Below, in pieces: positions 6,785-62,806 of a DNA stretch of 64,000 bases. Under the pieces are notes generated by a model, which saw only the letters and a list, made by a program, of their open reading frames with translations, had not been told where the DNA came from and searched no databases. Where the stretch lies: contig DFMV01000016.1 in NCBI GenBank assembly GCA_002375765.1, positions 99,087-163,086 of the forward strand, written 5' to 3'. Source of the DNA: Rhizobiales bacterium UBA3584 (GTDB lineage: Bacteria > Pseudomonadota > Alphaproteobacteria > Rhizobiales > Devosiaceae). The first letter of the stretch is position 1; every line of letters begins with the position of its first letter. The position numbers were made by a program, and so were the translations under genes.

Positions 6785-6833
6785 ATGGTCGGAGCGGCCG
6801 GATTTGAACCGACGACCCTTTGTCCCCCAGACA
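6785..6833. repeat. attL core: 49-bp direct repeat with the tRNA-Pro 3' fragment
   Basis: Identical to 54680-54728. It contains the T arm, variable region, 3' anticodon stem and CCA end of tRNA-Pro on the minus strand, but not the 5' half, so it is not a functional tRNA. The integrase stop codon lies 14 bases away. Confidence 0.92.
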
Positions 6834-12319: not shown

Positions 12320-12374
12320 GTGATCCTCCTGCGCATCGGGGGCGACGTTTCCGCCGACCCCCGCCCTGCGCTGG

Positions 12375-15211: not shown

Positions 15212-15544
15212 CTACTCCGGTTGGGTTTGAGAGGGGGATGCGGCGTCGATCAGATTGTGCCAGTCGTCAAAGCCCTGATCCTTCGCGTATATGCGGCTGG
15301 GCATTGAGTTCAGACCCAGCCGATCAACCGCTTGCCACTGGCATGCACGGGCGTCTGCGATCTCCCGCTCAAGCTCTTCCCGGTTAGTGCGTCCGGTATC
15401 GGGATCGATCTCATCAATGCCGTGAATGATGCAGCGTGCAGCGCGCGCCGATAGCTCGTTGCACTCTTCGATCAGCTTGCCGAGGATCGCTAGACGGTGC
15501 ATGTCCTGCTCTGGAAGCCATGGGGAAATTTGACCTTCGGCCAT
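15212..15544 (-). CDS. MazG-like phage protein
   Basis: 110 residues. The helical motif LIEECNELSARAARCI, with a second acidic helix REELEREIADARAC, resembles the ExxE ... ExxD metal site of all-alpha NTP pyrophosphohydrolases (MazG-like). Such enzymes would act on nucleotides during infection. AGGAGG lies upstream of the start. The identification is by motif only. Confidence 0.5.
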   Translation of the reverse strand: MAEGQISPWLPEQDMHRLAILGKLIEECNELSARAARCIIHGIDEIDPDTGRTNREELEREIADARACQWQAVDRLGLNSMPSRIYAKDQGFDDWHNLIDAASPSQTQPE

Positions 15545-15661
15545 CTGGCCCTCCTGTGAATTTGTGGGGCGGTGATACCGGGGCGCCCAGCCCGCTCGTT
15601 GTGGAGATTGGCCCCCAGCCCCGCATTCGTTCCGGTGCGGTGTCCGGTGCCCACTGACGGG

Positions 15662-16063
15662 CTATTCAGCAGCGACGGCAAAAGCCGCGCGTTCGTTGCG
15701 GGACTGGCGAACAAGCGCCTCGTGAATGTCCATCTGATTGGCGCACCAGCGCATGATCCAGGCTTTCGCCTTGCGGATTGCAGCCGGATCAATGGTCGTG
15801 ATAACCTCGCGATAGGGCTTGCCGCCGATGATTTGCTCCTGCCCGACGCGCTTGGTCTTGCCCACGATGCGCAGGTTGAAATCAAACCGCTCGTCGCACT
15901 CGATGCGCCAAATCTGCGGCTTGCATCCGGGGAAAGAGGCAACGGCACTGGCAATGCCGCCCTGAATGGTTCCATCGAGGTCGTTGCCCTCAAGGCCCAA
16001 TTCCAGCTTGATCTCGGCAACGCTGATCGGTGTGTCGCCATCACTCAAAAGATATGCGGGCAT
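15662..16063 (-). CDS. Hypothetical prophage protein
   Basis: 133 residues, with a beta-rich first half (PISVAEIKLELGLEGNDLDG; IWRIECDERFDFNLRIVGKTKRVG) and a helical C-terminal part. Not recognised. The 117 bases between this gene and the next hold only the latter's ribosome-binding site. Confidence 0.5.
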   Translation of the reverse strand: MPAYLLSDGDTPISVAEIKLELGLEGNDLDGTIQGGIASAVASFPGCKPQIWRIECDERFDFNLRIVGKTKRVGQEQIIGGKPYREVITTIDPAAIRKAKAWIMRWCANQMDIHEALVRQSRNERAAFAVAAE

Positions 16064-16093
16064 GGTCGTCTTTGCCTCCGGTGAGGATGGGGG

Positions 16094-16753
16094 TTAGGCG
16101 GCCTTCACGGCGCGAAGGTGCGGCGCGTTGGCGTTGAAAACGGCTCTTGAAAACCCCATGGGGGTGGCGCTGCGAAAGTCTGCGCGTCCATCGCCGGGGG
16201 TTGCTTTGTGGATGCGGTCGTCTGGCTCGCCGAGCCAAGGAGCCGGGCACTTCTCCGGCATTACAAAGCCGTTGTAGGCCCACACGCAGGTCTTCTTGCT
16301 GTAGTTGTCGTCTTCGCAGAGAGCCGCGTAATCGCTTGGATCGAAATAGTGGTCAGGCTTCCCGGTGTGGGGTATGCTCGACAGGACACCGACAGGGTTC
16401 TCGCTAAACGAGGGAGCGCCGGACCACTTCAGAACCTGCCGGCCAGCCTCGAACATCTCCAAGGCGTCGCGGAGCATGTATCCGCCCTTCTTGGCGAAGT
16501 CCCGAGCGCCTGAACCGGCGACATTGGTGCAAGGCGTCCAAGCGGCCCCGAATACAATCTCGACGCCAGCCGGGGGAGCCCAAGTCCGGACATCACCCCA
16601 GACGTAGTGGATGCGACCAGCACCAACCTGCTCAACACGATCACGGCGAATGGAGTGCTCGATATCGACACAGAAGCATTCATAACCAGCCTCGGCCCAT
16701 GGGCGAACAAAGTTGCCAGTCAGATCGCAGAGGGAAACAACAGCCCGTGTCAT
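16094..16753 (-). CDS. DNA (cytosine-5)-methyltransferase-like protein
   Basis: 219 residues. The start carries an AdoMet-site-like segment (LCDLTGNFVRPWAEAGYECFCVDIE), equivalent to the DLFxGxG...AG-Y and acidic strand of C5 methyltransferases. Then come GDVRTW and a PC-containing catalytic loop (WTPCTNVAGSG). The usual target-recognition domain is very short. It could methylate phage DNA against restriction. Phage homologues of this short form are known; their activity is often untested. Confidence 0.55.
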   Translation of the reverse strand: MTRAVVSLCDLTGNFVRPWAEAGYECFCVDIEHSIRRDRVEQVGAGRIHYVWGDVRTWAPPAGVEIVFGAAWTPCTNVAGSGARDFAKKGGYMLRDALEMFEAGRQVLKWSGAPSFSENPVGVLSSIPHTGKPDHYFDPSDYAALCEDDNYSKKTCVWAYNGFVMPEKCPAPWLGEPDDRIHKATPGDGRADFRSATPMGFSRAVFNANAPHLRAVKAA

Positions 16754-29420: not shown

Positions 29421-29892
29421 GCCCATTCTCCCCAACCAACGTCATGAAAGCTTCGCCCAGGCACTGGCTCAAGGCAAGACAGCGGATGAAGCCTATGCAC
29501 AGGCTGGATATAAGCCCAATCGCAAGAACGCATGGCGTTTGAAGACAAATGAAGACGTCGCGACGCGTGTTGCGGAGTTGAGCGTCAAAGCAGCCGAGAA
29601 AGCCGAATGGAGCGCCGCTGACAGGCTCAAGAGCCTCAAGTCGATCCATGACACCGTTCTGGAGAAAGACCCGCGCGTGGCCATCTCTGCGATCGGAGAG
29701 GCCAATAAGATGCAGGGCAGTCACGCCGCTGCAAAGCACCATCTCTCCGGCACGGTGCAGGTTGTCACCATCACCGCAAAGCATCTGGACGGATTGAACG
29801 ACGATGAACTTGCCGCTCTCGAAGCAGCATATCCCGTTCTCCAGAAGCTCGGGCTTGTGGGAGGCGATACAGGGTCAGCGGAAGAAGCGTGA
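29419..29892 (+). CDS. terS: Terminase small subunit
   Basis: 157 residues from ATG 29419; TTG 29404 is an alternative. N-terminal DNA-binding pattern RHESFAQALAQGKTADEAYAQAGYKPNRKNAWRLKTNEDVATRV is typical of small terminases that recognise the packaging site. It then has a helical oligomerisation region. It precedes and overlaps the large subunit. First gene of the late, packaging and structural module. Confidence 0.85.
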   Translation: MPILPNQRHESFAQALAQGKTADEAYAQAGYKPNRKNAWRLKTNEDVATRVAELSVKAAEKAEWSAADRLKSLKSIHDTVLEKDPRVAISAIGEANKMQGSHAAAKHHLSGTVQVVTITAKHLDGLNDDELAALEAAYPVLQKLGLVGGDTGSAEEA

Positions 29893-46456: not shown

Positions 46457-49396
46457 ATGACATTGGCAAGATATACCGGAACCGTGCAGGACGCGGCGGG
46501 CAACGCTGTGGCTGGTTGTGAGATCGAGGTGCGCAGCGAAAGCACCGGACTTCTGGCGGTCCTTTATTCTGACAGGGACGGGCTCAATCAGATCAGCAAT
46601 CGGTTCACGGCTCCAGACGCGACGTTTTCGTTCCACACCACGGGCGGGGCTTACCGAGTCACGGCGACTAAGGCCGGGTTCTCGGCAGAATGGCGCTTTG
46701 TGGCCATAGGGACGATGCAGGAACAGGATGTCGAGGGCATTGTGTTCAGCCTGCAGGCGGGCATTGTTCCGGCCCTGACACGGGCCGAACTGGAGCTTTA
46801 CATCCCGCCCGTGCCAGAGGAAGGCGAAGCTCTCCCCCGCGCCGGGGTGGTCTATGCCGATCCAGTCGCGTCGAACAACGGGTATTGGGTCTATAGCTTT
46901 GCTGATGAGGAATGGAAGTGGGCACGGCCCCTGTCCGATACGCTGGCAAGGCTGACGATTGTTGGCGGGGATGAAAACGCCATTGTTGCGACGGCTTCGC
47001 CAGGCGTTGATCCTGCATCGGTGATTGCGTTCTTCATCGACCCTTCGACGCCCAACACCGGCCCGGTGACGATCTCGATCAATGGCGATGATCCGGTTTC
47101 GGCCTATGATTACACTGGGGCTGAATTTCCCGCTGGGGCGTTTTCTAACCGCCTGTTCCTAACGCGCGAGGCGGATGGATCTCTGCAGTCGGTAATGCCG
47201 GCTGACATCGTTGCGCAGGCCGCCGCCAAGCTGGAAGAATTCCTGTCCCATTTCCTTGGCAACTTCGCTGACGATACGGCTGCCGCAACGGCCGCCGGAA
47301 CGCCAGTCGAGGGCCAGTTCTACTGGAACACCACGAGCAAGATCTATCGGTATTTTGATGGATCAACATGGCAGCCCTTCCCGTACGCGGCACTCGATGA
47401 CGGGTCCGTTACCGAGCCCAAGCTTGCAAACGCTGTGGCCCTATCCCTCGCCAATGTGCAGCCGACGCGTGCTGGTATAGCCGCGCTTGATACCACACGC
47501 TACAACGTCGCCTATCTGGCAGAGTCGGGGCGGGCGGGAGCGTTCCTTTGGAACCCGAGCGATCTTTCGGCAAGGCTGTCGCCGTCCTCGCTGACGACGA
47601 CCAGTGTTGACGATGCGGGAGACGTTCTCACGCTCGCAGATCACGGGTTACGCACTGGCGACGGCCTATATCCAACCACGACAGCAGATGGTCTGACAGC
47701 AGAAACGATCTATCGAGTTATCGCGCAGGAAACAGATGCCGTATACTTCTATAATCAGACTGCGGCGTTTACGGTAGGTCAGACGCTGACAGGCGGCACT
47801 TCGGGCGCGACGGCGACCATTGACAAGATCGATGATCGCGGGACGTGGGGCCTTCTTTATCTGAGCAATTTGACTGGCGCGTATGTCGTTGATGAGACGA
47901 TTACCGATGGCGCGGGCGGCTCAGCAGACGCACAGAAGGTCAACGCCACCGAATACGACCCCGACCGTTTTCAAGTGGCATTGAACGCGACTGATGCCTT
48001 TGCGGGAACCGCCGTCAATCTCACAGGAACAACGAACCTCACCTTCAACAAGCATATTGACCCTGGAGAAGGTGTTTACATCATTCCAGATGGTTCTGCC
48101 ATTGACGGATCGCAAGGCGCGTGGGTTCGTCAGCACGATGGCCCTCACGACATACGCTGGTGGGGTGGAAAGTCAGACAGCGGCACGACAAACAACGCTA
48201 TTGCGCTCCACGATGCTCAGGCAGCGCTCCCGTCCGAAGGGGGCAGTATTTACGTCCCCGGCGCTTCAGGGTTTTACCAACTGAATAACAACTTCTACCT
48301 CAAGAGCCATAACTGGTTGGTTGGCGAGGGCGTTGCTTCGTTCCTAAAGGGCAACGGTGCGGGCGTTGTGGTTGATGCTGTCTCTTTCCCAGAGATACGC
48401 ACCTTGTGGGGCATCGATAAGATCAGGGTTGACCGCGCCGGGGCGGTTGGGCCTGCCGTATTCCTGAGGGGCAAGGCTGTAAGCGGCCATGCGCCTGTTC
48501 GTGGTGTCATCCGCGACTTGACAATCCGCGCATCTACCGGCGATGGGCTGGTCTCTGAGGGGTCATATCTTGTCGATATGTATAACCCCAATATTCACGA
48601 TTTGACCAACGGCATTGGGCTGAAGCTCACGCAAGACCCTAATGCATCTTTGGGCGCCTATGCATGGAAGGTGTACGGCGGCGAAATCGCCTGGTGCAAT
48701 ATAGGCGTTTTTATCTACCGCGCATTTGGTGTCCATTTTTACGGAACGGCCATTGAGGGCAACCTGACAAGAGGTGCCGATGTCAATGAATTCTCCGATG
48801 CGGTCGGGTTCTATGGGTGTTATTTCGAGGCGAACGGCGGCAGCACTGGGCAGGACATCCGCACTCCGCCGCTACAGGTTCGGGCTCCGCGCTCGCTCGT
48901 TATTGATGGGTGCAACTTCCAGGACAGCGGAGGGAAAGACCATTCAATTGTACTGAATGCCGGAGAAAACGTCTCCGTCACTAACAATTGGTTCAACGGC
49001 TATCCTGTTTCAAAGGTCATGGTTGGCTCTGGTGTTACTGGGTATGAGCGCAACAATCGCGTCGACGCTTCCAGCCCCACCGTGGACACGTACCGCACCG
49101 GATTTCGTGCTCCGCTGGATGAACACGTGGTTACTGCGGAAGTTGTTTTTGATTGGCCTTCGATCGCGGCTGGCGGCGCATCATCTTCTACGTTTACAGT
49201 TTCCGGGGTCTCCGCAGGAGATATCGTCATCGGATGGTCAACTACGTCGACCGGGATTGTTGGTCTGCAAATGACAGCTGCGGTCGTCGGCACAAATACG
49301 GTCCGCGTTAATATTCACAACCCTTCCGGGTCGGCCGTTGACATGAGCAGCGCAACGTTCCGGTTTATTGTGCTGAAACAGGATGAATGGTTGTAG
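46457..49396 (+). CDS. Tailspike with a right-handed beta-helix, possible depolymerase
   Basis: 979 residues. The N-terminus has a carboxypeptidase-regulatory-like beta domain (YTGTVQDAAGNAVAGCEIEVRSESTG) that anchors to the tail. A linker region follows with Gly/Thr-rich beta repeats. From about residue 570 the pectate-lyase-like signature appears (DIRWWGGKSDSGTTNNAIALHDAQAAL, then IYVPG), followed by beta-helix coils up to about 880 and a C-terminal trimerising domain. Such spikes bind and often cut host capsule or exopolysaccharide. Catalytic residues cannot be named. Confidence 0.8.
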   Translation: MTLARYTGTVQDAAGNAVAGCEIEVRSESTGLLAVLYSDRDGLNQISNRFTAPDATFSFHTTGGAYRVTATKAGFSAEWRFVAIGTMQEQDVEGIVFSLQAGIVPALTRAELELYIPPVPEEGEALPRAGVVYADPVASNNGYWVYSFADEEWKWARPLSDTLARLTIVGGDENAIVATASPGVDPASVIAFFIDPSTPNTGPVTISINGDDPVSAYDYTGAEFPAGAFSNRLFLTREADGSLQSVMPADIVAQAAAKLEEFLSHFLGNFADDTAAATAAGTPVEGQFYWNTTSKIYRYFDGSTWQPFPYAALDDGSVTEPKLANAVALSLANVQPTRAGIAALDTTRYNVAYLAESGRAGAFLWNPSDLSARLSPSSLTTTSVDDAGDVLTLADHGLRTGDGLYPTTTADGLTAETIYRVIAQETDAVYFYNQTAAFTVGQTLTGGTSGATATIDKIDDRGTWGLLYLSNLTGAYVVDETITDGAGGSADAQKVNATEYDPDRFQVALNATDAFAGTAVNLTGTTNLTFNKHIDPGEGVYIIPDGSAIDGSQGAWVRQHDGPHDIRWWGGKSDSGTTNNAIALHDAQAALPSEGGSIYVPGASGFYQLNNNFYLKSHNWLVGEGVASFLKGNGAGVVVDAVSFPEIRTLWGIDKIRVDRAGAVGPAVFLRGKAVSGHAPVRGVIRDLTIRASTGDGLVSEGSYLVDMYNPNIHDLTNGIGLKLTQDPNASLGAYAWKVYGGEIAWCNIGVFIYRAFGVHFYGTAIEGNLTRGADVNEFSDAVGFYGCYFEANGGSTGQDIRTPPLQVRAPRSLVIDGCNFQDSGGKDHSIVLNAGENVSVTNNWFNGYPVSKVMVGSGVTGYERNNRVDASSPTVDTYRTGFRAPLDEHVVTAEVVFDWPSIAAGGASSSTFTVSGVSAGDIVIGWSTTSTGIVGLQMTAAVVGTNTVRVNIHNPSGSAVDMSSATFRFIVLKQDEWL

Positions 49397-49407
49397 TTTC
49401 GGCATCG

Positions 49408-49431
49408 GCGGTGCCCCTAATGGGGCACCGC
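49408..49431. terminator. Strong hairpin between tailspike and flippase genes
   Basis: GCGGTGCCCC-TAAT-GGGGCACCGC, a perfect 10-bp stem with a 4-base loop between two convergent genes. Lacks a long T-run, but probably blocks both transcripts. Confidence 0.6.
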
Positions 49432-49440
49432 GCATACTCC

Positions 49441-50616
49441 TCAAGCGCGATGAGTGGCGGCAACAGGCCCAATGCTACGAGCGGCCAGCACGTATACGAA
49501 CACAAGTGCAACAATGGATATGCTGATTGCCAAATCCGCTGATCCGCTCAAAGCGAAAAGCGCGTAAAACATCGCCATCAGCACCACTGAAAGCAACGCT
49601 GGGAACGTGGTGTTGAAGATGGGAGAAAGGGGTCTGAGGACGAATATGTAGTAGGCCAAGGGCTGCGCAACTAAAAACAGTGAGGCTGCAAGCAGCGTGA
49701 TCCGATTGAACGAAGGGCTGCCGAAAGCCAACTCGTAGGCGAGAGGGAAAGCCGCAACCAGGACGGATGCAAAGACCAAATAAGAAGCCCCATAATATCG
49801 CAACAACGTGGGCAGTTCCGTATCGCCGAATGCCAGGTGCCGCTGGATCGATGCCTGAAGTTTTGCGAGGGGGACGACGTTTATGAAGCGCCCTGAACTT
49901 ATCGCGGCCATGAAGATGCGGAATTCGCCAATGGTGGCCGCCGTTGCTCCGGCGTATCCGAGAACGATCGTTGTGAGGCCGGTTATGCATATTGTGGGCA
50001 GACGAAACGATAACCCGCCTGCGAGTGTTCCAAAAGAGGGCCGGTCCCACCGAAACGACACCCTGCGCTGAGTCAGTAGAATGCCGCCTACAATCGTGGA
50101 CGCCAAGGCAAAGCCAGCCAAGTTGGCAGCAATAATGGCTCCTTCGATATCCAGATAGACCATGGACACGAATGTCACGAGATAAGCCGCAAGGGAGGTG
50201 TATCGGGCAACTGCTGCGAGTTTCACATCTTTCAAGGCAAACGCGGCCGCGCCAATGAGAGAGTAGAGGGCGTAAAATATGGCGACGAAGATCAGCAGAA
50301 TGATATCGAAGTCGCCTATCGTTGCCGCGACGGCGATTGTCATTAACACGCCTGTTTGAAGAGCGATATTCGAGAGATTGATGTTGGCTGTTTCGCCGTC
50401 GGTGCTTGAGTTCAAGTCAGCCTGATAGGATGGTTCCAGAAGCGCCTGGGCAAAGAACACCGGCGCCAAAAACAGCATCTGCGCACCGAATGCCGCAACG
50501 CCGATAATGAACGGGGCCACGAATGACTGAAACATCATCAGGGCAATGTTGCCAAACTGAAAGTGAATCGATGGGCTTCTAACTGCCCTGATCAGAAGCG
50601 ATAGAAGTTTTTTCAT
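49441..50616 (-). CDS. Wzx-like polysaccharide flippase, prophage-borne
   Basis: 391 residues with about ten to twelve hydrophobic helices. Organisation and motifs resemble the MOP/Wzx family: an N-terminal FGNIALMMFQSFVAPFIIGV helix region, FFAQALLEPSYQADL, and a C-terminal hydrophobic block. It should move lipid-linked sugar repeat units across the inner membrane. Start ATG 50616 behind GGGGGG. Locally more A+T-rich than the phage structural genes. It is slightly shorter than typical Wzx proteins (400-500), so a related membrane protein is possible. Confidence 0.65.
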   Translation of the reverse strand: MKKLLSLLIRAVRSPSIHFQFGNIALMMFQSFVAPFIIGVAAFGAQMLFLAPVFFAQALLEPSYQADLNSSTDGETANINLSNIALQTGVLMTIAVAATIGDFDIILLIFVAIFYALYSLIGAAAFALKDVKLAAVARYTSLAAYLVTFVSMVYLDIEGAIIAANLAGFALASTIVGGILLTQRRVSFRWDRPSFGTLAGGLSFRLPTICITGLTTIVLGYAGATAATIGEFRIFMAAISSGRFINVVPLAKLQASIQRHLAFGDTELPTLLRYYGASYLVFASVLVAAFPLAYELAFGSPSFNRITLLAASLFLVAQPLAYYIFVLRPLSPIFNTTFPALLSVVLMAMFYALFALSGSADLAISISIVALVFVYVLAARSIGPVAATHRA

Positions 50617-50730
50617 TATGACCCCCCGAAAAGTTACACTGAGCGAGACCGAGCGTTAAGAATATTGCGACAGCGCTTTGCGTTATCACGAAGCATATCT
50701 GCACAAAACTGGCAAACGCCAGTGCGACAA

Positions 50731-52077
50731 TCATCTTTTTCGTGCTGACTTGTCGCTCTGTAGGGTGGGCAACGCACTCGCAGCAGCTAGCCCGATGAAC
50801 ACCATGGGGTCGTCGATCAACCCTTGGTGCAGAACCGCCATGCCGATAAGTGCGCCACGGTAGGCTAGCAGCCCGATAAAAAATACCCGCGTTTCCGGAT
50901 CAGAAGGACGCAGGGCTGATCGTATGTGATGAGGGATGCCATAAAAAGCCAGCAACAGAATTATCGCAAGCCCGAGGACATATCCGTGTCGATAGATGAT
51001 CATCACATAGGTAATGTGCGGAGCACGGACGATGCGCTCCACTCCACTGGGCGTAGTGACTGTCTGTCGTGTGCCTGCGCCAATCCCGAAAAGCGCCGAC
51101 TGCCAGCTTGAATTCGTAAGGGCGAGAAAGTACTCGGCCTCTGCCAAACGTGTTCCCAAGCCAGCCGCGTTAGAGGCGATAGCGGCCTCCCAACGACTGT
51201 GGGCTTCGGTCGCGTCGGTGAAAGTGGAAGGATCTTCCCCGCCAACGCCGGTGTCGGACGCTGTGCCATATTCGTAATCTGGCGTAGACGGCAGCGCTTC
51301 ATCTTCAAATACGGCGCTCGCATCCAATCGACCAAACCCCGGCATGGAGACAACCATAGGAATCAAGGCTATAATTATCACGAAGGCGCTTATCGCTCCG
51401 AGTGTGATGCTTCTAGGCGTGTGCCGGAAGATTCCTGCTAAGGCAAAAAGTCCGCAAATTCCCGCAGCCAGGATTGTCCCGGCCACCACGGAACGCGTAA
51501 GCCCGAGCGAGAAGATTGCCACCACGGCAAGTAGGGCAGCAGCGAGAGCACCCAGTTGGCGTCTTCGGCAATAGAGGGTGAGTGGAATCAGGAGAGCAGG
51601 GAGAAACACTTCCCACTGAATCCCGTACCGCATTATTCGGTTGGCAATGAGAAGATGAATGACGGTTCGGAGCACAACCCAAACGGCTAGCGAGCTTATG
51701 ATTGCGGTAAGGATGGTCCGGATGGGGAGCGTTCGGAACATCAGCAAGCCAAAGAGCAGATAGCCCACGGGCAATGCGTACCGAACCGCATCGGCTATCA
51801 TGTCGATCCCGAAATTGCCGTTGATGATTCCGATGATGAAATACGGCGATATTAGAAGGAACCAGAGGGCAGCGAGCCAGTTGAACTGCCTAAGCATAGG
51901 TCGGGCGACTGGCAACCACACAGCGCCTTGTGCAAGAACCCACACCGCAAACGCGAGGCGCATGAACTCACGGCGCTGGTCCGGGTCCATATAGACGCGC
52001 AGGTCGTACCAGCCGATTTTAGAGAAAAGAACGAAACAGAACGTCCAGAATACGGCGGTCGCGAAACGCGCGTTCAT
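50731..52077 (-). CDS. Wzy/WaaL-like polysaccharide polymerase or ligase, prophage-borne
   Basis: 448 residues, about ten to twelve transmembrane helices with one large periplasmic loop (about 265-350, FGRLDASAVFEDEALPSTPDYEYGTASD ... SSWQSALFGIGAG), the Wzy/WaaL arrangement. The loop is followed by the HITYVMIIYRHGYVLGLAIILL segment typical of the Wzy_C family. It would link repeat units into a chain with a specific bond. First gene of the two-gene reverse cassette, with its own weak promoter. It lies 114 bases upstream of the flippase. Confidence 0.7.
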   Translation of the reverse strand: MNARFATAVFWTFCFVLFSKIGWYDLRVYMDPDQRREFMRLAFAVWVLAQGAVWLPVARPMLRQFNWLAALWFLLISPYFIIGIINGNFGIDMIADAVRYALPVGYLLFGLLMFRTLPIRTILTAIISSLAVWVVLRTVIHLLIANRIMRYGIQWEVFLPALLIPLTLYCRRRQLGALAAALLAVVAIFSLGLTRSVVAGTILAAGICGLFALAGIFRHTPRSITLGAISAFVIIIALIPMVVSMPGFGRLDASAVFEDEALPSTPDYEYGTASDTGVGGEDPSTFTDATEAHSRWEAAIASNAAGLGTRLAEAEYFLALTNSSWQSALFGIGAGTRQTVTTPSGVERIVRAPHITYVMIIYRHGYVLGLAIILLLAFYGIPHHIRSALRPSDPETRVFFIGLLAYRGALIGMAVLHQGLIDDPMVFIGLAAASALPTLQSDKSARKR

Positions 52078-52110
52078 CGATGAAGTCTTTCCTTCTCAGC
52101 CCCAGTGGCA

Positions 52111-52139
52111 CCTAAACCGCGTCCAACACAGAATTGCAA
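52111..52139 (-). promoter_or_regulatory. Possible promoter of the Wzy/Wzx cassette
   Basis: On the minus strand TTGCAA (52134-52139) and TTTAGG (52111-52116), 17 bases apart. A weak but independent promoter would let the cassette be expressed in the lysogen while late genes are off. Confidence 0.4.
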
Positions 52140-52142
52140 CCC

Positions 52143-52167
52143 GCCCCGCCATAGAGCGGGGCTTTTT
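52143..52167 (+). terminator. Terminator bounding the polysaccharide cassette on the right
   Basis: GCCCCGC, a six-base loop, GCGGGGC and five T. It acts on plus-strand transcripts. With the hairpin at 49408 it encloses the two reverse genes. Confidence 0.75.
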
Positions 52168-52253: not shown

Positions 52254-52280
52254 CCATCAAACATCGATAAGGAGGCCGTG

Positions 52281-52964
52281 ATGGCCCGAGAGAACTTCGC
52301 TTCGGCGTTGACGGAGGTGCTTGCCCATGAGGGTGGGTATGTGAACAATCCTGCCGATCCGGGTGGCCCAACCAATCTCGGCGTCACGCTGGGAACGGCC
52401 AAGCGGCTGGGAATTGACGTAGATGGCGACGGCGACACCGACATCATCGACATAAAGCTGCTCCAGCCTGCCGATGCGGCCAAGGTCTATCGAGCAGAAT
52501 ACTGGAACAAGGTGCGCGGCGATGATCTGCCGTCCGGGCTCGATTTTGCCGTGTTCGACTTTGCCGTGAACTCAGGACCGGGCAGGGCAGCGAAATATCT
52601 CCAGGCACTGGTTGGCGTTGCTCAGGACGGTTCCATTGGTCCGAAGACCCTGGCAGCGGTCGCGGCATACGACCCCGCCAAGCTTATCGACCGGCTCTGT
52701 GATCGCCGCATGACCTTCCTGCGCAATCTCTCACACTGGTCCACGTTCGGCAAAGGCTGGACCCGCCGAGTGGAAGGCGTGCGCGCCGTTGCCAAGCAGA
52801 TGGCGGCCCAAGCGCCAGAGATGCCCACGCAGCCGCAAAAGCCCGTTCCGTCGCCGCAAGCACCCGAAACGGGCAAACCCCACTCTCCGATCAAATCTGG
52901 CGGTCTTGTCGCCATCCTCGTAGGGGCCGCCGCTTTGGTGGCCTTCTTTATTTTCGGTCGCTGA
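52281..52964 (+). CDS. Endolysin, GH108 muramidase with C-terminal membrane anchor
   Basis: 227 residues from ATG 52281; AAGGAGG at 52269-52275 fixes the start. The muramidase domain fits GH108: FASALTEVLAHEGGYVNNPADPGGPTNLGVTLGT (catalytic Glu in HEGGY), VYRAEYWNKVRGDDLPSGLDFAVFDFAVNSG and the PG-binding-like DGSIGPKTLAAV. A proline-rich linker leads to one C-terminal transmembrane helix (GGLVAILVGAAALVAFFIFG). It cuts peptidoglycan glycan chains at lysis. Confidence 0.88.
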   Translation: MARENFASALTEVLAHEGGYVNNPADPGGPTNLGVTLGTAKRLGIDVDGDGDTDIIDIKLLQPADAAKVYRAEYWNKVRGDDLPSGLDFAVFDFAVNSGPGRAAKYLQALVGVAQDGSIGPKTLAAVAAYDPAKLIDRLCDRRMTFLRNLSHWSTFGKGWTRRVEGVRAVAKQMAAQAPEMPTQPQKPVPSPQAPETGKPHSPIKSGGLVAILVGAAALVAFFIFGR

Positions 52965-54679: not shown

Positions 54680-54728
54680 ATGGTCGGAGCGGCCGGATTT
54701 GAACCGACGACCCTTTGTCCCCCAGACA
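54680..54728. repeat. attR core: 49-bp direct repeat in tRNA-Pro
   Basis: Identical to attL 6785-6833. It forms the 3' two-thirds of the intact tRNA-Pro gene, so the phage copy restores the gene on integration. The 54445-54679 stretch beside it has no gene; it holds a twice-repeated TGTCGTGGGA (54555 and 54566). Confidence 0.92.
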
Positions 54729-54757
54729 AATGCGCTACCAGGCTGCGCTACGCCCCG
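54681..54757 (-). tRNA. tRNA-Pro(GGG)
   Basis: 77 bases with encoded CCA. Acceptor stem CGGGGCG/CGCTCCG, D-arm GCGCAGCCTGGTAGCGC, anticodon loop CTGGGGG giving anticodon GGG, T-loop GTTCGAATC. Chromosomal 5' half lies to the right, and the 3' part comes from the phage attachment site. Now lacks its original terminator, which remains beyond attL. Confidence 0.95.
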
Positions 54758-54878: not shown

Positions 54879-55046
54879 ATGCCGATACTTTTGATCGTGC
54901 TGGTGGCCATTCTGATCGGCACCGTGGGCTTTTGGGATTCGCTGGGAGCGCTGCTCGGCGCAGTCGTCGTTTTGGGCCTGTTCTGGCTATTGGTGGCCAT
55001 AACCGGAATTCTTGCCGTGCTGTGGCTGGTCCGAAAGATATTTTAA
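54879..55046 (+). CDS. Small two-span membrane protein
   Basis: 55 residues from ATG 54879 behind AGGGGA. Two hydrophobic helices (PILLIVLVAILIGTVGFW; LLGAVVVLGLFWLLVAITGILAVLWLV). No family is recognised. It is the first chromosomal gene right of the tRNA, and its end overlaps the convergent EPS polymerase gene by four bases. Confidence 0.55.
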   Translation: MPILLIVLVAILIGTVGFWDSLGALLGAVVVLGLFWLLVAITGILAVLWLVRKIF

Positions 55047-56308
55047 GGCAGTTGGCGCTCTCGCCGTTCAGTGTGAGGCGCCGCAGCGCAAATACCCCAC
55101 ACCAGTCCTGTTACCAGGAACCAGTGTCTCCAGTGATCGGTATCGATGATTCCCGATAGGGCGATCATCGGCACAAACGTGGCAAACACCGGAATCAGGA
55201 GTGGGCGGTGGGCGCGATGGACCAGTGCCTTGCTGCCGGCCACCAGGGTCGATCCGACAAGAAGGTAATAGATGATTGCGCCGCCCCAGCCATACGTCAA
55301 AGCGACATTGAGATAAGTGTTGTGCGGCTGCTCGGTGATGCGCAGAAATCCGTATTCCAGCGGACCTATACCCCAGGGATGGGTCAGGACCACATCGATC
55401 GTGTACCAGATGCGCCCGAAACGGCCCAACTCGCCGGTGTCATAACTCTGGGTAAGGGAAAATCGCTGGGCGAAAAGCTCAGAGACCACCGGGATCGACA
55501 GGAGCACCGCCATGGCGGCGGCCAACATCATCAGCCCGCCGATGGCGATCAACAGCAGGCGCACTTTTTCCCGCGCCGACGCCTCAAGGAAAAACACCAT
55601 GGCGAAGGTCAGAAGGGAAGAAGCGGCCAGATGGCCCCATGCGCCGCGCGAAAAGCTCACGAAAACGCCCACAAAGATGACGAGATAAGCAGCGCCGTTC
55701 CAAAGGGAGGAGCGCCCGCTTGTTAGCAGTACTCGCTGCAAAACAAACATCGCTGGAAGAATGAGGAAGGGGCCATAAACGTTGGGGTCGTTAAAAAACG
55801 CCTTGGCACGACCAAACCGCAGGAACACATCCTCACCCGGCAAAAAGCCCATATAGGCCAAAGTTCCGACAACGGACGCGATCAGCGCAATGGCAACATA
55901 GGCCTTGGCGATCAGTCGCATATTGGTATGGGGCGCCTGAGCCACAAAGTTGGCGACGAAATAGCTTGTGATCAGTAGAAAGATCGTAACGAGATTGAAG
56001 ATCAATCCATCAAGCACGCCCTGGTAGACCATGAAAAATGGCGAGATCAGAGCAAACGGCGCAAAAGCAACGACTATGAACAGCAGGGGCAATGTCTGGC
56101 GCCGTAGCTGCAGCCCGCCGGCCAGCGCTACGGCAAAGGCAAGCAGAAACATCACCTCATAGGGTGATGGTTCGACGATCACGAACCCTCCTGAAAAAAT
56201 CCATATGCCGACGATCAGCCCCAGCGCCTTTCTGGCGCTCGCGCCGAGCCACGCCCGGCCACGCTCGGACTGCGCAAGCGCGGTTGGAGCGGGCAGGGCG
56301 AGGGTCAA
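55043..56308 (-). CDS. Host EPS polymerase / O-antigen ligase-family protein
   Basis: 421 residues from TTG 56308, overlapping the stop of the sugar-transferase gene; this start is uncertain. About ten to twelve helices, with the Wzy_C signature after the main loop (IWYTIDVVLTHPWGIGPLEYGFLRITEQPHNTYLNVALTYGWGG). This HNTYL/GP pattern is typical of WaaL/Wzy/ExoQ proteins. It polymerises the exopolysaccharide whose first sugar is added by the next gene's product. It differs clearly from the prophage Wzy. Confidence 0.8.
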   Translation of the reverse strand: MTLALPAPTALAQSERGRAWLGASARKALGLIVGIWIFSGGFVIVEPSPYEVMFLLAFAVALAGGLQLRRQTLPLLFIVVAFAPFALISPFFMVYQGVLDGLIFNLVTIFLLITSYFVANFVAQAPHTNMRLIAKAYVAIALIASVVGTLAYMGFLPGEDVFLRFGRAKAFFNDPNVYGPFLILPAMFVLQRVLLTSGRSSLWNGAAYLVIFVGVFVSFSRGAWGHLAASSLLTFAMVFFLEASAREKVRLLLIAIGGLMMLAAAMAVLLSIPVVSELFAQRFSLTQSYDTGELGRFGRIWYTIDVVLTHPWGIGPLEYGFLRITEQPHNTYLNVALTYGWGGAIIYYLLVGSTLVAGSKALVHRAHRPLLIPVFATFVPMIALSGIIDTDHWRHWFLVTGLVWGICAAAPHTERRERQLP

Positions 56309-57834
56309 AACGCGTTCTCGTTCTTGGTGAACAGAGAAATTGGTGTCATCACAAGGATGTAGAGGTCGAGCAGGATGGACCAGTTCTCGATGTAATAAAG
56401 GTCGTGATCGACGCGGGCCATCAGCTTGTCGACCGTATCGGTTTCGCCGCGCCAACCGTTGATTTGCGCCCACCCGGTGATGCCGGGCTTAACCTTGTGT
56501 CGCGCAAAATAGCCATGGACTGCATCGTGATAAAGCCGGTTGGCGGCTTTCGCCTCCAGCGCATGGGGGCGCGGGCCCACGATGGAAAGCTCTCCCTTGA
56601 GGACGTTGAAGAGCTGCGGCAGTTCGTCGATGGACGTCTTGCGAATTATCCGTCCGACCGGGGTAACGCGCGGATCGTTGCGTGTGACGAGCGTTGACGC
56701 TTTGGCGTCGCTCATGTCGGTGTACATTGACCGGAATTTATAGACTGCGATCAACTCGTTATTGAAGCCGTGACGGTTCTGTTTGAAAAGAACCGGCCCC
56801 TTGCTCGTCGCTTTGACAGCGATGGCCGTCCCGATCATCACGGGCGAGAGCACGACGAGCGCGAACAGCGCGACGAGCTTGTCAAACACCCATTTGAAAA
56901 CAAGATTCCAGTCCGAAATCGGCCGGTCGGCCATCTCGAAGACCGGGAGATCGCCGACATAGGAATAGGTCTTGTCGGTAAAGCGCAGCTTGCTCATATG
57001 GGCGCTGAGCCGGATATCGACCGGGAGCACCCACAGTTGGCCCAGCATTTCGAGCAGGCGGGATTCGGCCGACAGAGGCATCGAAACGATGACCAGATCG
57101 ATGCGGGCGCGGCGCGCGAACTCAACAAGATCGGCAACCTTGCCGAGCTTTTTTACCCCGGCGACCGCCTCGGGAGAGCGTTCGTCATAGCGGTCGTCGA
57201 ACAGACCTATGAGGTCGATATCGCTGGTCGCGCTTTTTTCGATTGCCCCGATAAGAGCTTCGGCCGCGGGGCCTCCGCCGACGATCACAGTGCGCCGCCG
57301 CAGGCGGCCCTTGGTGGACCAGTCAAGGACCAGCGCCCGTAGTGTCAGGCGATAGAAGACCAGCGCGACCCCGCCCGATAATGCCCAACTGCCAAGCCAG
57401 ATTCGCGAAACCAGATCGCCCGCCTTGAAGGCGAAAAGGCCGGCGACGACAAGCAGGAAGACACCAGTCCAGCCCCCCAAAACACGCAGGATTTGCTTGA
57501 AAAGCGTCCTGTAGGCCGCAATGCGGTGGGTGCGGGCAACGTTGAAGGCGATGTTTGCCGCTGCCACGATGCCGAGCGAAAGCGGCACATAAAGCACCGG
57601 ATCGATCCCGCCGAGATAAAACAGATAAATACCCAATCCGAGCGTCAAAAGCAGCACGGCTTCGATCAGCTGAGCAAAGCCGGAGACCAGTTTATGCGAA
57701 AGCGTTGGCGAGACGGGGGCCTGCACGGCCGCCTCCGCATCCGCGCCAAGCGTCCCCATGGTTCCGGTGCTCGCGGATATGTGGCTGAGTACGGCTTCTT
57801 TGGGATCGACCCTGAACACGGGTTGGCCTCGCAC
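56305..57834 (-). CDS. Undecaprenyl-phosphate sugar-1-phosphate transferase (WcaJ/ExoY type)
   Basis: 509 residues. Four N-terminal membrane helices, a CoA-binding-like domain (RTVIVGGGPAAEALIGAIEKS ...), a fifth helix (VFDKLVALFALVVLSPVMIG), then the bacterial sugar transferase domain with KFRSMYTD, TRNDPRVTPVGRIIRKTSIDELPQL (catalytic Asp-Glu) and GPRPHALEAK. It starts repeat-unit assembly by moving a hexose-1-phosphate onto undecaprenyl phosphate. Full length for the WcaJ class. Confidence 0.9.
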   Translation of the reverse strand: MRGQPVFRVDPKEAVLSHISASTGTMGTLGADAEAAVQAPVSPTLSHKLVSGFAQLIEAVLLLTLGLGIYLFYLGGIDPVLYVPLSLGIVAAANIAFNVARTHRIAAYRTLFKQILRVLGGWTGVFLLVVAGLFAFKAGDLVSRIWLGSWALSGGVALVFYRLTLRALVLDWSTKGRLRRRTVIVGGGPAAEALIGAIEKSATSDIDLIGLFDDRYDERSPEAVAGVKKLGKVADLVEFARRARIDLVIVSMPLSAESRLLEMLGQLWVLPVDIRLSAHMSKLRFTDKTYSYVGDLPVFEMADRPISDWNLVFKWVFDKLVALFALVVLSPVMIGTAIAVKATSKGPVLFKQNRHGFNNELIAVYKFRSMYTDMSDAKASTLVTRNDPRVTPVGRIIRKTSIDELPQLFNVLKGELSIVGPRPHALEAKAANRLYHDAVHGYFARHKVKPGITGWAQINGWRGETDTVDKLMARVDHDLYYIENWSILLDLYILVMTPISLFTKNENAF

Positions 57835-57910
57835 TGATTGTCATGAATTCGTGCGCGGGACTATGAGGTGCCGATGGTGAAAAGGCGTTAAAACCGCCCT
57901 CGGCAATTGG

Positions 57911-59032
57911 TCAAATGGTTAGCGACTGGTAGAGAGCCTCGATCTCGTCGACCATGCGGGTCAGCGAGAAGCGAGAATGGACGAATTCACGGCGCGCCTC
58001 TGCTTCGGACTCAAAAGAGGCCGGGTCGGCAAGAAACGCCGCCATGGCATCTTTGAGGGGCGCGGAATCCTCGGGCGCAATCAGGCTTTGCGACGTCGGG
58101 CCGAAAATTTCTCCGATCCCCCCAACATCGGTGGCGATGACCGGCCTGCCAGCCGCCGCCGCTTCCATCACAACGTAGGGCAGCGACTCGGCACGAGAGG
58201 GGACCAGAACGCACCGTCCGCTTGCGAAAATCTCCCGCGCGGGACGAATGCCGGCCAACCTGACGCGATCGGTTAGTCCCATTTGGCCGATGCGATCACG
58301 CAAAGCTGCAGCGTCAGGGCCGTCGCCAGCCATGATGATACTGGCGGGGCGACCATCTGGTGCCTTGAGCGGTGCCAAGGCCTCAACGATCAGATCGATG
58401 CCCTTGAGAGTCCGCAATTCACCGACAAAGGCAAAATCTGCAGCATCGGGATTGGGATTTATGGGGATGAACTCGGCCTCGGCTAATCCGTTGTGGATCA
58501 CCTCCTGTCGCCCGTGTGGCGGACTGACATGGGAGGCAAAGGTCGTCTGCGCATAGCGGCTTTCAAAGATCAGCGCATCCGTCAGCCGCAAGAGCGTGCG
58601 TTCGATAGTCATGAACGCGCCACCCGACAGCGAGCGCGGATCGAAATGCAGCGCACCCCCATGCGGCGTGTAGACCGCGCGGGCCTGCTTTCGACCTATA
58701 CGCGCCAGCCTGGCGCCAAAGCCGCCCTTGGCGCCGTGCCCGTGCAGGATGTCGGCCCGCAATGACTTGGCCAGTGCACGAATCTTGTAGGGGGTCGTGA
58801 TGTCCTGCGGCCCCAGCAGGCGCGGGATGGAGAAGCGATGGATGCCCAGTGCGGCGAACGGCGCGATGGTCGCCAGCTTGGCGTCGGATTGCGCATCGCC
58901 ACTTTCATCCACCACGATGCCGATCTCGTGTCCCCGTTCTGCAAGGGTGCGCGTGAGATCGGCAACATGGCGGAAGAGGCCGCCGACCGGAGCGCGCATG
59001 ACCTGCAGAATGCGCAGGCTGTTGTTGGCCAC
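57911..59032 (-). CDS. GT4-family glycosyltransferase
   Basis: 373 residues with the GT-B fold. N-terminal: MRAPVGGLFRHVADLTRTLAERGHEIGIV and DILHGHGAKGGFGARL. C-terminal donor site: FVGELRTLKGIDLIVEALAPL, AGDGPDAAALRDRI, VLVPSRAESLPYVVMEAAAAGRPVIATDVGGIGEI with the E-x7-E motif. It adds a sugar to the EPS repeat unit. Stop and start lie close to the export gene, in the same minus-strand operon. Confidence 0.9.
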   Translation of the reverse strand: MANNSLRILQVMRAPVGGLFRHVADLTRTLAERGHEIGIVVDESGDAQSDAKLATIAPFAALGIHRFSIPRLLGPQDITTPYKIRALAKSLRADILHGHGAKGGFGARLARIGRKQARAVYTPHGGALHFDPRSLSGGAFMTIERTLLRLTDALIFESRYAQTTFASHVSPPHGRQEVIHNGLAEAEFIPINPNPDAADFAFVGELRTLKGIDLIVEALAPLKAPDGRPASIIMAGDGPDAAALRDRIGQMGLTDRVRLAGIRPAREIFASGRCVLVPSRAESLPYVVMEAAAAGRPVIATDVGGIGEIFGPTSQSLIAPEDSAPLKDAMAAFLADPASFESEAEARREFVHSRFSLTRMVDEIEALYQSLTI

Positions 59033-59035
59033 AGC

Positions 59036-59593
59036 TCAGATCCAGCGTTCTGCGATAACGATGGTATCGCCCGGCAGGATCGGGAAGTCGAGTTCGACGC
59101 TCCCTTTGACCATCTCGTTGCCCTGGCGGCGGTAAATTGTTGCGGTGTTGCGGTTTGCCGTATCGGTAAAGCCGCCCGCAGCACTGATCGCGGCCCGCAC
59201 CGTCATGCCGTAGGAATAGGAGTATTGCCCGGAAGAACCGACTGCACCCTGGATGAAAAAGGGCCTGTATTCAGCAACTTCCACGGCAACGTTGGGGTTT
59301 CGCATATAGCCGGCAGCCAGAGCCGATGCGACCTTGCGCGACAGCGCTTCGGTGGTTGCGCCGCGGGCCTGCACCGCGCCCACCAGCGGCATGGCGATGG
59401 CGCCGGAATCGTCGACCCGGTAGGTGTTGGTGAGGTTGGCATCGCCGTAAACGCTGACCCGCAGTACATCGCCGCTGTCGAGCAAATAAGGCCCGCTCTG
59501 TTCGACCAGATAGGTGGCCGGGCGTCCGCTATGTGCGCACGCGCCCAAAAAAAGCGGCAACAAAAGCAAGGCTAGGCGCAGCCGACCCATCAT
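59036..59593 (-). CDS. Polysaccharide export lipoprotein (Wza/OPX family, short form)
   Basis: 185 residues. Lipobox LFLGAC at the end of a signal peptide gives a lipid-modified cysteine. A Poly_export domain follows (YLLDSGDVLRVSVYGDANLTNTYRVDDSGAIAMPLVGAVQARG) and one SLBB-like domain (FIQGAVGSSGQYSYSYGMTVRAAISAAGGF). The short form lacks the C-terminal helix that crosses the outer membrane in Wza. It is the first gene of the leftward EPS operon, divergent from the co-polymerase gene. Confidence 0.85.
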   Translation of the reverse strand: MMGRLRLALLLLPLFLGACAHSGRPATYLVEQSGPYLLDSGDVLRVSVYGDANLTNTYRVDDSGAIAMPLVGAVQARGATTEALSRKVASALAAGYMRNPNVAVEVAEYRPFFIQGAVGSSGQYSYSYGMTVRAAISAAGGFTDTANRNTATIYRRQGNEMVKGSVELDFPILPGDTIVIAERWI

Positions 59594-59734
59594 ATCCGTC
59601 CCGTTTCATGCAGTGAGCTTACGTCTCCCACGTCATGGTTAAAAAGCTCTTAGCGCGAGCCGGGCGAAAAGGGGGCTTAACCGAATGCTTACCATGTCGG
59701 GGCGATAAGCGCGTGACGAACGAAGGGCGACCAA

Positions 59735-61750
59735 ATGAGCGATTCCGCATCCGGGGCAGATAGGTCCGAGGAAAGCATAGACGCTGGCGTCATTCTCAAA
59801 GCGGTGTTCTCAAAGCTGCTTCGCATCGGGTTTGTGACCGTGCTGCTGCTGGCGGCCGCTTATGTGGTTTTGCAGTTTGTGCCCAGGCTCTATGAATCCC
59901 GGGCCGAACTTCTCGTCGAGCCACGCAGTACGGCCTATACAAGCGCCGCGAGCAATCAGAGTGCTGAAACCTATTATATCGACATCGCGACCGTTTCGAG
60001 CCAGATCGAATTGATCAAGTCGCGGGACACGATCCTTGCTGCCGTGGAGACTGCGGCGCTCGGCGACGAGTCAGCCTTCGAGGGGTGGAGCGACAACAGG
60101 ATCATTGGCGAAATCGCTGAAAACCTTGTCGTGACGCAAGAACGCAGCTCCCGGCTGATTTCGGTGGCCTATCGCCACACCGATCCTGAATTGGCGGCCA
60201 GGGTCGCCAATGCCATCGTTCGGGCCCACGTCCAGAGGCGGGCTGGCCAGCAGATATCCGATACGGTCGACGCGACAGCGTGGCTGCAACAGGAAATCGA
60301 CCGGTTGCGCCAAAGCGTTGTCGCTGCGGAGCGGGCCATCGCCGATTACCGAGTTCAGAATGATTTGTTTACGGGGTCCAACAACGAGAGCCTGACCAAT
60401 CAGCAGCTCTCCAATTTTTCGTCACAGATCACCGCAGCCAACGAGCGGCGCAATGCAGCCCAGTCACGAGCTCAACTGATCCGGAGCCTGCTTGAATCCG
60501 GGCAGTCGGTTGGCGGGGTCTCTGATGTGCAGGCTTCTTCTGTCGTGCAGCAGCTTAGCCAGGAACTGGCGCGCCTGCAGGGAGAGCGCGCCCAGCAAGC
60601 GGCAACATTCCTGCCCAGCCATCCCACGATCCGCGCGCTCGACGCCCAGATCGCCGAAATCAATTCCCAGATTGCCAGCGAAGGGCGCCGGGTCGCCCAA
60701 GCCCTGGAAGCTCAGGCTCAAATCGAGGCCGATCTTGAGCAGTCCCTCCGCGCTGAACTCGATCGGGTCAAAGTGACCGCTGGTGCCGATACCATCGAAG
60801 GTGTCGGCCTCGCCGAGCTCGAACGCGAGGCAGCTGCGCAGCGCGAACTGCTCAACGCCTATCTGCTGCGCTTCACCGAGGCGTCGGCGCGGTCTGACAT
60901 GAGTTCGGCGCTGCCCGACGTGCGCATCGTCAGTGAAGCTGTGCCGGCATCTTCGCCCGCATCGCCGAAGTCAAGCCTGGTGCTCCTTGCGGTCGGCGTT
61001 GCTTCGGTTCTCCTGCAGACTGGCGCTGTTATTTTCTCTGAGCTCTTGTCGGGCCGCGCGCTGGTCGAACGGACGGTGCGCAAAGTCAGCTCCGAGATCA
61101 GCGAAGAAAAGAATGCCGCGGGCACACCGGCTTTGGCAGACGAGGCGGCCAAGCCGGCATCTTCACCTCCGTTGGCGATAATCGGTCATCGGCCTCCAGC
61201 GGACCTTATCGACACCGAAATCGAAGCGCTCGCCGCCAGCGTCCTGGCGCGGCTCGACAGGTTGGTCATTGTTGCGTCCGACCGCGACGACGAGGAAAGC
61301 CTTGCCTTTGCCGAGCGGCTCACGGCCGCGGTGGTGGAAAACGGCCAGAGTGTAGCGGAAATCGATGCGGCGAGTGGTCAGCAGGGCATAGAGATGGGGC
61401 TCACCGATCTATGCGCGGAAGGCGCCGACTTCGGAGATGTCGTGCACCGGGGTGCTGACGACCGATTTGCCTTCGTGCCCTGGGGACAAGGAACCCGGCT
61501 CAACCGCAACACCGAACGCGTTGCTACCCTGGTTGATGCACTGTCAGATATCTATGAGGTTATCGTTGTTGTGACGGGCCGGGTCGGCATGACCTCGAGC
61601 CTGCCGCTCTTTGCCGGCGTTGAGGGCAAATGTGTCCTGCTCTCCTCGATAGGGGCCAGCAACAGTGCTGCCGCCAGGGAAATCGGCGCGCTCGGCTTCT
61701 CCGATGTCCGCATCATTGCGACTGCCGAAGCGCAGTCCGAAGTCGCCTGA
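59735..61750 (+). CDS. Wzc-like polysaccharide co-polymerase with degenerate kinase domain
   Basis: 671 residues. N-terminal helix near 27-50, Wzz domain (LYESRAELLVEPRSTAYTS), long coiled coil (about 160-390), a second membrane helix near 410-430, then a cytoplasmic domain resembling a bacterial tyrosine kinase. That domain has the strand LDRLVIVASDRDDEES where the Walker A GxxGxGKT should be, and no tyrosine-rich tail. It should set EPS chain length and contact the export lipoprotein, but is probably not an active kinase. The 141-base gap to the export gene must hold divergent promoters. Confidence 0.85.
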   Translation: MSDSASGADRSEESIDAGVILKAVFSKLLRIGFVTVLLLAAAYVVLQFVPRLYESRAELLVEPRSTAYTSAASNQSAETYYIDIATVSSQIELIKSRDTILAAVETAALGDESAFEGWSDNRIIGEIAENLVVTQERSSRLISVAYRHTDPELAARVANAIVRAHVQRRAGQQISDTVDATAWLQQEIDRLRQSVVAAERAIADYRVQNDLFTGSNNESLTNQQLSNFSSQITAANERRNAAQSRAQLIRSLLESGQSVGGVSDVQASSVVQQLSQELARLQGERAQQAATFLPSHPTIRALDAQIAEINSQIASEGRRVAQALEAQAQIEADLEQSLRAELDRVKVTAGADTIEGVGLAELEREAAAQRELLNAYLLRFTEASARSDMSSALPDVRIVSEAVPASSPASPKSSLVLLAVGVASVLLQTGAVIFSELLSGRALVERTVRKVSSEISEEKNAAGTPALADEAAKPASSPPLAIIGHRPPADLIDTEIEALAASVLARLDRLVIVASDRDDEESLAFAERLTAAVVENGQSVAEIDAASGQQGIEMGLTDLCAEGADFGDVVHRGADDRFAFVPWGQGTRLNRNTERVATLVDALSDIYEVIVVVTGRVGMTSSLPLFAGVEGKCVLLSSIGASNSAAAREIGALGFSDVRIIATAEAQSEVA

Positions 61751-61759
61751 GCGAACCAG

Positions 61760-62806
61760 GTGCCCCGTTACGGAGTTTACAGGGCTGCCTTTGAGGCATT
61801 GGCACTACCGGGGATTGCGGCCGGACTGCGGCGGTTTTCGGCGGCGCGCGGGCTCATCTTTACCCTGCACAGGGTTTTGCCCGATGCCCCGGCAGCATTT
61901 TCGCCCAACTCCATCCTGCAGATCCGGCCCGACTTTCTCGAAGCTGTCATCGTGCGTGCGCGAGAGGCCGGTTTCGATATCGTCGATCTCGACGAGGCTA
62001 CAAGGCGCATCGCGAGCGAGGATGCCAAACCCTTCATCGTTCTCACTTTTGACGACGGCTATCGCGACAATCTCGTCCACGCCTTGCCAATCCTGCGCAA
62101 GCATGCGGCTCCCTTCACCCTCTATATCCCGACCGGTCTGATCGATGGGGTGGGGCTGGTCTGGTGGCAGGCGCTTGAGGATATCATTGCCGCCAATGAC
62201 GTCGTTGTCGTTGAGATGCCCGAGGGACCGCACTACGGCGATGCGGGAACATTGGAGCAAAAGAATACCACTTTTGCTCACATCTACCAGCGCTACCGCA
62301 AAATGCCCGAACCTCAGCGCGAGGCGTCGATCAGGACGCTGGCGCAGCGCTATGGCCTCGACCTGGGGGCGCACTGCCGCGGTCTCATTATGGATTGGTC
62401 CGAGCTCAGGACGTTCACCGACGAGCCGCTCTGCACTATCGGCGCGCACACAGTCCATCATTACGAGCTTTCAAAGCTTGACGAGAACCAGATGCGGGCC
62501 GAGATTGAGCAATCGGCCAATGTGCTCGAAGCCCAGTTCGGCACGCGACCTCGCCATCTGTCCTATCCCATCGGCGGCGTTGCCGCCGCCGGGCCGCGCG
62601 AGTTTGCCGCCGCGACCGACCTTGGATTTGCCACTGCCGTGACCACGCGCCCGGGCGGCCTCTACGCCGAACACGCCGCCCACCTCAACGCGCTGCCTCG
62701 CGTGTCGCTCAATGGATTGTTTCAGAAACAGCGATTCATTGACGTGTTCCTGACCGCCGAAATGTTCACCCTGATGCGGCGCGGTCGTCGGCTCGATGTG
62801 GAATAA
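61760..62806 (+). CDS. Polysaccharide deacetylase-family protein (NodB fold)
   Basis: 348 residues, GTG start nine bases after the co-polymerase stop. NodB motifs: FIVLTFDDGYRDN (motif 1, catalytic and metal Asp), HTVHHYEL (motif 2 His-x3-His region) and RPRHLSYPIGG (motif 3). It likely removes acetyl groups from the exopolysaccharide or a related glycan. Cotranscribed with the Wzc-like gene. No signal peptide is evident. Confidence 0.85.
   Translation: MPRYGVYRAAFEALALPGIAAGLRRFSAARGLIFTLHRVLPDAPAAFSPNSILQIRPDFLEAVIVRAREAGFDIVDLDEATRRIASEDAKPFIVLTFDDGYRDNLVHALPILRKHAAPFTLYIPTGLIDGVGLVWWQALEDIIAANDVVVVEMPEGPHYGDAGTLEQKNTTFAHIYQRYRKMPEPQREASIRTLAQRYGLDLGAHCRGLIMDWSELRTFTDEPLCTIGAHTVHHYELSKLDENQMRAEIEQSANVLEAQFGTRPRHLSYPIGGVAAAGPREFAAATDLGFATAVTTRPGGLYAEHAAHLNALPRVSLNGLFQKQRFIDVFLTAEMFTLMRRGRRLDVE

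Follow-up and report, generated by a model that had tools for sequence, protein, structure and literature searches.

The question raised by this locus is what two minus-strand genes for membrane proteins, here called wzx and wzy after the proteins that their products resemble, are doing between the plus-strand tailspike gene and the plus-strand GH108 endolysin gene of a prophage in Rhizobiales bacterium UBA3584 (contig DFMV01000016.1, positions 99,087 to 163,086; this whole stretch of 64,000 nucleotides is called the window, and its own numbering is used below). We consider the pair to be probably a lysogenic-conversion cassette for surface polysaccharide, at a probability of roughly 0.6. This reading rests on the prophage setting, the folds of both proteins, an HX10G motif in one of them, an insertion that is specific to the strain, and searches that gave at best short, weak matches elsewhere.

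Both open reading frames (ORFs) are open over their whole length, and structure comparison bore out the first-pass annotation, made from the sequence alone, which had called two reverse-strand genes, one flippase-like and one polymerase/ligase-like, between the tailspike and the lysis gene of a prophage. Specifically, the protein of 391 amino acids (aa) has a MOP-type fold with a WzxE chain as the top structural match, and on this modelled fold it is a putative Wzx-type mover of lipid-linked sugar units. The 448-aa protein has a WaaL-type membrane fold, its top structural match being the O-antigen ligase WaaL, and in its putative large periplasmic loop it carries a motif of the H-X(9-10)-G type (H354-X10-G365) that is conserved in six of six members. 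Fold and motif are common to polymerases and ligases, so the protein is described here as a wzy-like polymerase or ligase. Family libraries returned little: the flippase had no family in Pfam, PHROGs or NCBIfam up to E 1, its four relatives had none in Pfam, and the 448-aa protein itself had no Pfam Wzy_C match. A Wzy_C scan of the relatives of the latter, which took in P0006, P0009 and P0010 and left out P0007 and P0008, gave matches below the cut-off in P0009 (E 2.3e-6) and P0010 (E 4.6e-5) and none in P0006. Searching solved structures by sequence gave nothing useful for the pair or the tailspike.

The prophage is bounded by an exact direct repeat, with an integrase just inside attL, and also has recognisable repressor, terminase, portal, tape-measure and major tail genes (Table 1). 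The same prophage is held in IMG/VR as a record of 47,598 bases, one end of which corresponds to window position 54444. A genome of the same species, G533, matches the window over 9,321 bases (99.957% identity) and 6,437 bases (99.938%), and the two stretches overlap in exactly the 49-base att sequence, that is, the empty site; a congener (G008) has the same pattern at 80-84% identity. The gene pair is carried by the integrated phage and is absent, at the empty site, from kin free of the prophage. The att sites, the empty site and the host polysaccharide cluster beyond attR had escaped the first-pass annotation. A tRNA-Ser called by ARAGORN over the start of the terminase gene (29778-29850, minus strand) lacked Rfam support and was rejected.

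Table 1. Features of the window discussed in the text, with the evidence for each
Feature	Position	Strand	Evidence or remark
wzx-like flippase, 391 aa	49441-50616	-	MOP-type fold
wzy-like polymerase (or ligase), 448 aa	50731-52077	-	WaaL-type fold; HX10G at 354-365
Hydrophobic 51-aa ORF, speculative	50579-50734	-	ATGA overlap with wzy stop; 38-base overlap with wzx start
Perfect 10-bp hairpin between convergent tailspike and wzx genes	49408-49431		Fold shuffles; no T run
Terminator-like stem with T5 and 7 GC pairs	52143-52162	+	Plus-strand z -2.9; 4/200 shuffles fold as well
Tailspike: N-terminal adaptor, C-terminal beta-helix-like part	46457-49396	+	PHROG 38233 tail fiber, E 1.8e-35
Endolysin (GH108)	52278-52964	+	PF05838, E 1.5e-26
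Prophage, att to att, 47,944 bp	6785-54728		49-bp exact direct repeat at ends; integrase inside attL; empty site in same-species genome
attL	6785-6833		Identical to 54680-54728 over 49 bases
attR	54680-54728		Within 3' part of tRNA-Pro (54681-54757, minus)
Tyrosine integrase	6847-8004	-	PF00589, E 1e-27; just inside attL
Host Wzy_C protein, outside prophage	55043-56473	-	PF04932, E 3.2e-9, over cut-off; start uncertain, ORF overlaps next
Host initiating glucose-phosphate transferase (WcaJ type)	56305-57834	-	TIGR03023, 466.6 bits (cut-off 410.75)
Host GT4 glycosyltransferase	57911-59032	-	Family-library match
Host polysaccharide export protein (Wza type)	59036-59593	-	PF02563, E 7.3e-22
Host Wzz/Wzc-type chain-length protein	59735-61750	+	PF02706, E 6.9e-7
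Host polysaccharide deacetylase	61760-62806	+	PF01522, E 2.9e-20

As far as searched, a wzx and wzy pair in such a phage is unusual, as had been suspected at the outset. Neither protein matched in 50,697 phage records (tblastn, E up to 1), and in IMG/VR both match this same prophage only. The polymerase alignment found its own genome alone among 101 genomes (relatives, own included), its own and two partial matches (18.8 and 18.9 bits) among 397 genomes of the order, and 21 stretches, with no relative among them, in the contig set of genomes; the flippase alignment, run on 385 genomes of the class, found its own and one 54-residue match with two stops (E 9e-4). With tblastn of both proteins, 144 fetched loci yielded copies of this prophage and one 54-residue stretch in L005 (E 0.003). 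Relatives came from a set of 5.8 billion proteins, in searches that scored only the 7,997-7,998 candidates sharing most words with the query: four of the flippase (47-55% identity; a profile search gave the same four) and five of the polymerase (39-51%), eight of the nine under a source marked lgn. The flippase's own 90% cluster (P0001) comprises four sequences on three contigs. Open-licence papers yielded no phage-borne wzx and no cassette with such a flippase, subscription journals lying mostly outside the search. New here, within that scope, is a putative Wzx-type flippase beside a prophage Wzy-like protein; prophage polymerases that alter linkage are already known.

The possibility that the tail-lysis interval is a hot spot for such genes was also considered and found to be unsupported: 79 other endolysin loci (80 of 132 found were kept, own included; many are short and the count of membrane spans is crude) held no ORF of at least 200 aa with at least six predicted spans. 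Likewise, in the tail-fibre relatives L010, L012, L013, L053, L055 and L057 no picked downstream ORF had more than four spans, in counts that left out L011, L014, L016-L019, L020-L022, L054, L056, L058 and L064.

If the pair converts the lysogen, undecaprenyl-linked sugar units that host enzymes make would be carried over the inner membrane by the phage flippase; the phage polymerase would then link them, either through a different bond or into a different polymer from the host's. With its surface altered, the cell would adsorb less well any phage, this one's sister copies among them, with a tailspike that cleaves or attaches to the former polymer. The likeliest source of precursors would be the host cluster that begins just outside attR (55043-62806), since it holds the only initiating transferase found in the genome: its WcaJ-type protein is the sole PF02397 match, and the prophage has neither a PF02397 transferase nor a second PF00953 transferase. 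Expression, substrate, changed polymer, the effect on adsorption and the joint arrival with the tailspike tip (see below) are what we infer from these genes.

Temperate phages also carry Gtr cassettes (gtrA, a flippase, with gtrB and gtrC), which attach side groups and whose flippase, GtrA, is small and unrelated. Like the pair, these combine a temperate-phage flippase with a membrane sugar enzyme, whereas the pair has Wzx and Wzy folds. The serotype-converting unit of Pseudomonas phage D3 is described as three genes, for Iap, an O-acetylase and a beta-polymerase (PMC4815439; also PMC12373910). As in the present prophage, the D3 polymerase is a phage-borne Wzy-type protein with a ligase-superfamily motif; it is reported to have essential Arg and His residues and to use sugar units made by the host (PMC4815439). 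Compared by description, the D3 unit has no flippase, whereas this prophage has a flippase and no established inhibitor (PMC4815439). Similar in arrangement are Acinetobacter prophages whose wzy (WzyPh1, PMC9241936; wzy1Ph and wzy2Ph, PMC13228068) lies near a tailspike depolymerase gene, as here, with integration at a tRNA in one case, again as here. There, prophage polymerases that change linkage have been measured (PMC9241936), and the shielding of a lysogen from kin by tailspike and wzy has been published as speculation (PMC13228068). These cases come from another host class and are given without a prophage wzx, the word being absent from the main text of PMC13228068 and used once, for the host locus, in PMC9241936; the linkage made by WzyPh1 was measured (PMC9241936), whereas a change of linkage by the present pair is predicted from its genes.

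Was the pair simply captured from the adjoining host cluster? Capture was rejected because phage and host Wzy align with weight only around the motif (blastp best E 0.062; hhalign probability 2.5%, 30 columns), the phage Wzx has no similarity to the host flippase of contig C32 (best E 1.7), and the phage Wzy had no match in any other of the 101 genomes. All 13 genomes of the genus, this one among them, gave a match to the host Wzy, two at 30-31% identity and two with internal stops; it is the only Wzy_C match in the genome, the phage Wzy lying beyond the reach of that model. For PF01943 this genome gave nothing, and for PF13440 a single partial match, in a 536-aa frame taken as a putative MurJ; such absences, that of another PF02397 transferase included, are provisional because the assembly is 92.77% complete. 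The C32 flippase, which has no Pfam match, stands beside a gene of the GNAT/FemAB type, an arrangement that may resemble that of holdfast genes. At L167:8845-11399, next to a gene of this type, the host flippase-like gene has 32% identity over 102 residues to the sister-strain flippase, with matches of similar score elsewhere in the genus.

Among the other explanations, the one that survives best, unlikely though we hold it, is that the 448-aa protein is an enzyme of the O-antigen-ligase type, which would pass the flipped glycan to another acceptor (lipid A core or a protein) and make no polymer, hence a decoration and not a switch of linkage. Its top structural match is indeed a ligase, and WaaL and Wzy share fold and motif. 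However, wzy genes typically sit with a flippase gene, and the 448-aa gene adjoins one. Moreover, the ligase-superfamily motif is found in D3 Wzy-beta, which is a polymerase (PMC4815439).

A somewhat fainter prospect is that the pair is cargo of benefit to the host, giving the lysogen an extra polymer (for biofilm or protection from grazing) that has little to do with phage receptors. Polysaccharide genes of the host lie near by, and the sister strain G533 has accessory polysaccharide genes of its own: it carries a second initiating transferase within a region (L061 and L168, about 390-427 kb) whose translations, read by eye, resemble a flippase and, interspersed with transposases, products of dTDP-rhamnose and further sugar genes. 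Within the window's genome the flippase of that region is matched at 24% identity only, in a place shared by G533, and 6.4 kb of the region gave four short matching stretches only. G533 is thus not otherwise isogenic. Against such cargo, the position next to the tailspike and a shared dip in G+C point weakly to receptor biology. The G+C is 0.534 in wzx, 0.558 in wzy and 0.557 in the tailspike gene from 47501 on, vs 0.599 in the prophage, so that the lower G+C first noted for the two genes stands, with the dip extending into the second half of the tailspike gene. Windows of the pair's length (2,637 bases) place the 12 lowest values of 454 at starts within 47985-49485, and third-position G+C is 0.62 in wzx, 0.61 in wzy and 0.62 in the tailspike gene, vs 0.72 in the adjoining tail genes, 0.69 in the lysis genes and 0.65 in the host Wzy gene.

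The tailspike may itself, judging from its sequence, be a tip fused onto a shared adaptor. Over its first 118 residues (46457-46810) it shares 40% identity with a 134-aa protein that a related prophage encodes separately (L021:7333-7737), and because these residues resemble a stand-alone protein the tip looks exchangeable; PF13229 (Beta_helix) matched at E 2.2e-5, below the family cut-off. Searches with the tailspike gave, in IMG/VR, one match of 50 residues besides its own record, and partial matches in six phage records. A joint arrival of tip and gene pair fits the composition, which by itself is no proof. In one pair of Acinetobacter prophages, sequence shared around wzy reaches into the region coding for the depolymerase C-terminus (PMC13228068). 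The related viral contig L010 encodes a 124-aa protein (12291-12665) with the same Pfam match as the 134-aa relative of the adaptor and, downstream of its tail genes, an esterase (BD-FAE; 15403-16203) that is another possible surface-sugar enzyme.

Transcription is a weaker point of the conversion reading. The first-pass annotation had enclosed the pair between a hairpin and a terminator and had credited it with a possible promoter. The hairpin is confirmed: it has a 4-base loop, is the sole perfect 10-bp stem with a loop of 3-8 in the prophage, and folds at z -5.0 on the minus and -4.2 on the plus strand, with 0 of 200 shuffles as good on either; lacking a T run, it is therefore no canonical intrinsic terminator. 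The terminator exists, with its TTTTT, but was found on the plus strand only, so it does not end a wzy/wzx transcript and would instead halt late-operon transcription ahead of the lysis gene; the six terminator-like sites of the region are not clearly above shuffles (3.4, sd 2.0). The promoter could not be upheld, as a scan for consensus hexamers, which other promoter types would escape, gave three sites, all on the plus strand (shuffles 2.0, sd 1.4), and the best hexamer pair within 200 bases before wzy has 8 of 12 matches to the consensus. With a plus-strand terminator ahead of the endolysin, the lysis genes would need a promoter of their own or antitermination.

The missing promoter suits passenger DNA, that is, a piece of some foreign polysaccharide cluster, picked up not long ago and kept silent in the lysogen; so does the lack of relatives of the pair among the related phage loci that were retrieved. 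The open frames, bordered on one side by the prophage's only such hairpin and on the other by a terminator, speak against it, and we regard it as improbable. Least probable is interference, in which the pair, having no initiating transferase of its own, would drain or misroute lipid-linked units and shut down the host polymer so that dependent phages cannot adsorb, for although the genome's sole PF02397 match is the host's and in D3 Wzy-beta is accompanied by another protein that inhibits the host polymerase (PMC4815439), two fully open frames suggest, indirectly, selection for working enzymes.

Conversion may have a more elaborate form, which we put forward as a long shot: a lock-and-key module in which the tailspike tip, the polymerase, an Iap-like peptide and the flippase move as one block. 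The suggestion comes from the hydrophobic 51-aa ORF between wzy and wzx, together with known small phage proteins that alter O antigen: the small D3 gene iap acts against the host polymerase (PMC4815439), and other phage proteins of 40-90 aa are reported to shift O-antigen bands alone (PMC12373910). One polymer would serve the tailspike for entry; once lysogeny is established, the peptide would silence the host polymerase, and phage flippase and polymerase would take the host's sugar units into a polymer that the same tailspike fails to recognise. The 51-aa ORF is a possible small membrane peptide. Shuffled spacers with that start (n=5000) gave 34 ORFs as long and hydrophobic and 1440 as long, in a test devised after the ORF had been seen, and its codon-position composition is not coding-like.

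Cassettes of this sort may escape notice, as three family libraries gave no significant match to the pair. G533, with its empty site and flanks more than 99.9% identical, provides a natural comparison, though the strains differ elsewhere too. Phage-borne polymerases already show viruses rewriting bacterial coats. If the present pair works, the phage brings its own flippase and could thus handle sugar units that the host flippase does not, and, were the lock-and-key module true, that flippase would free the phage from the substrate preference of the host Wzx.
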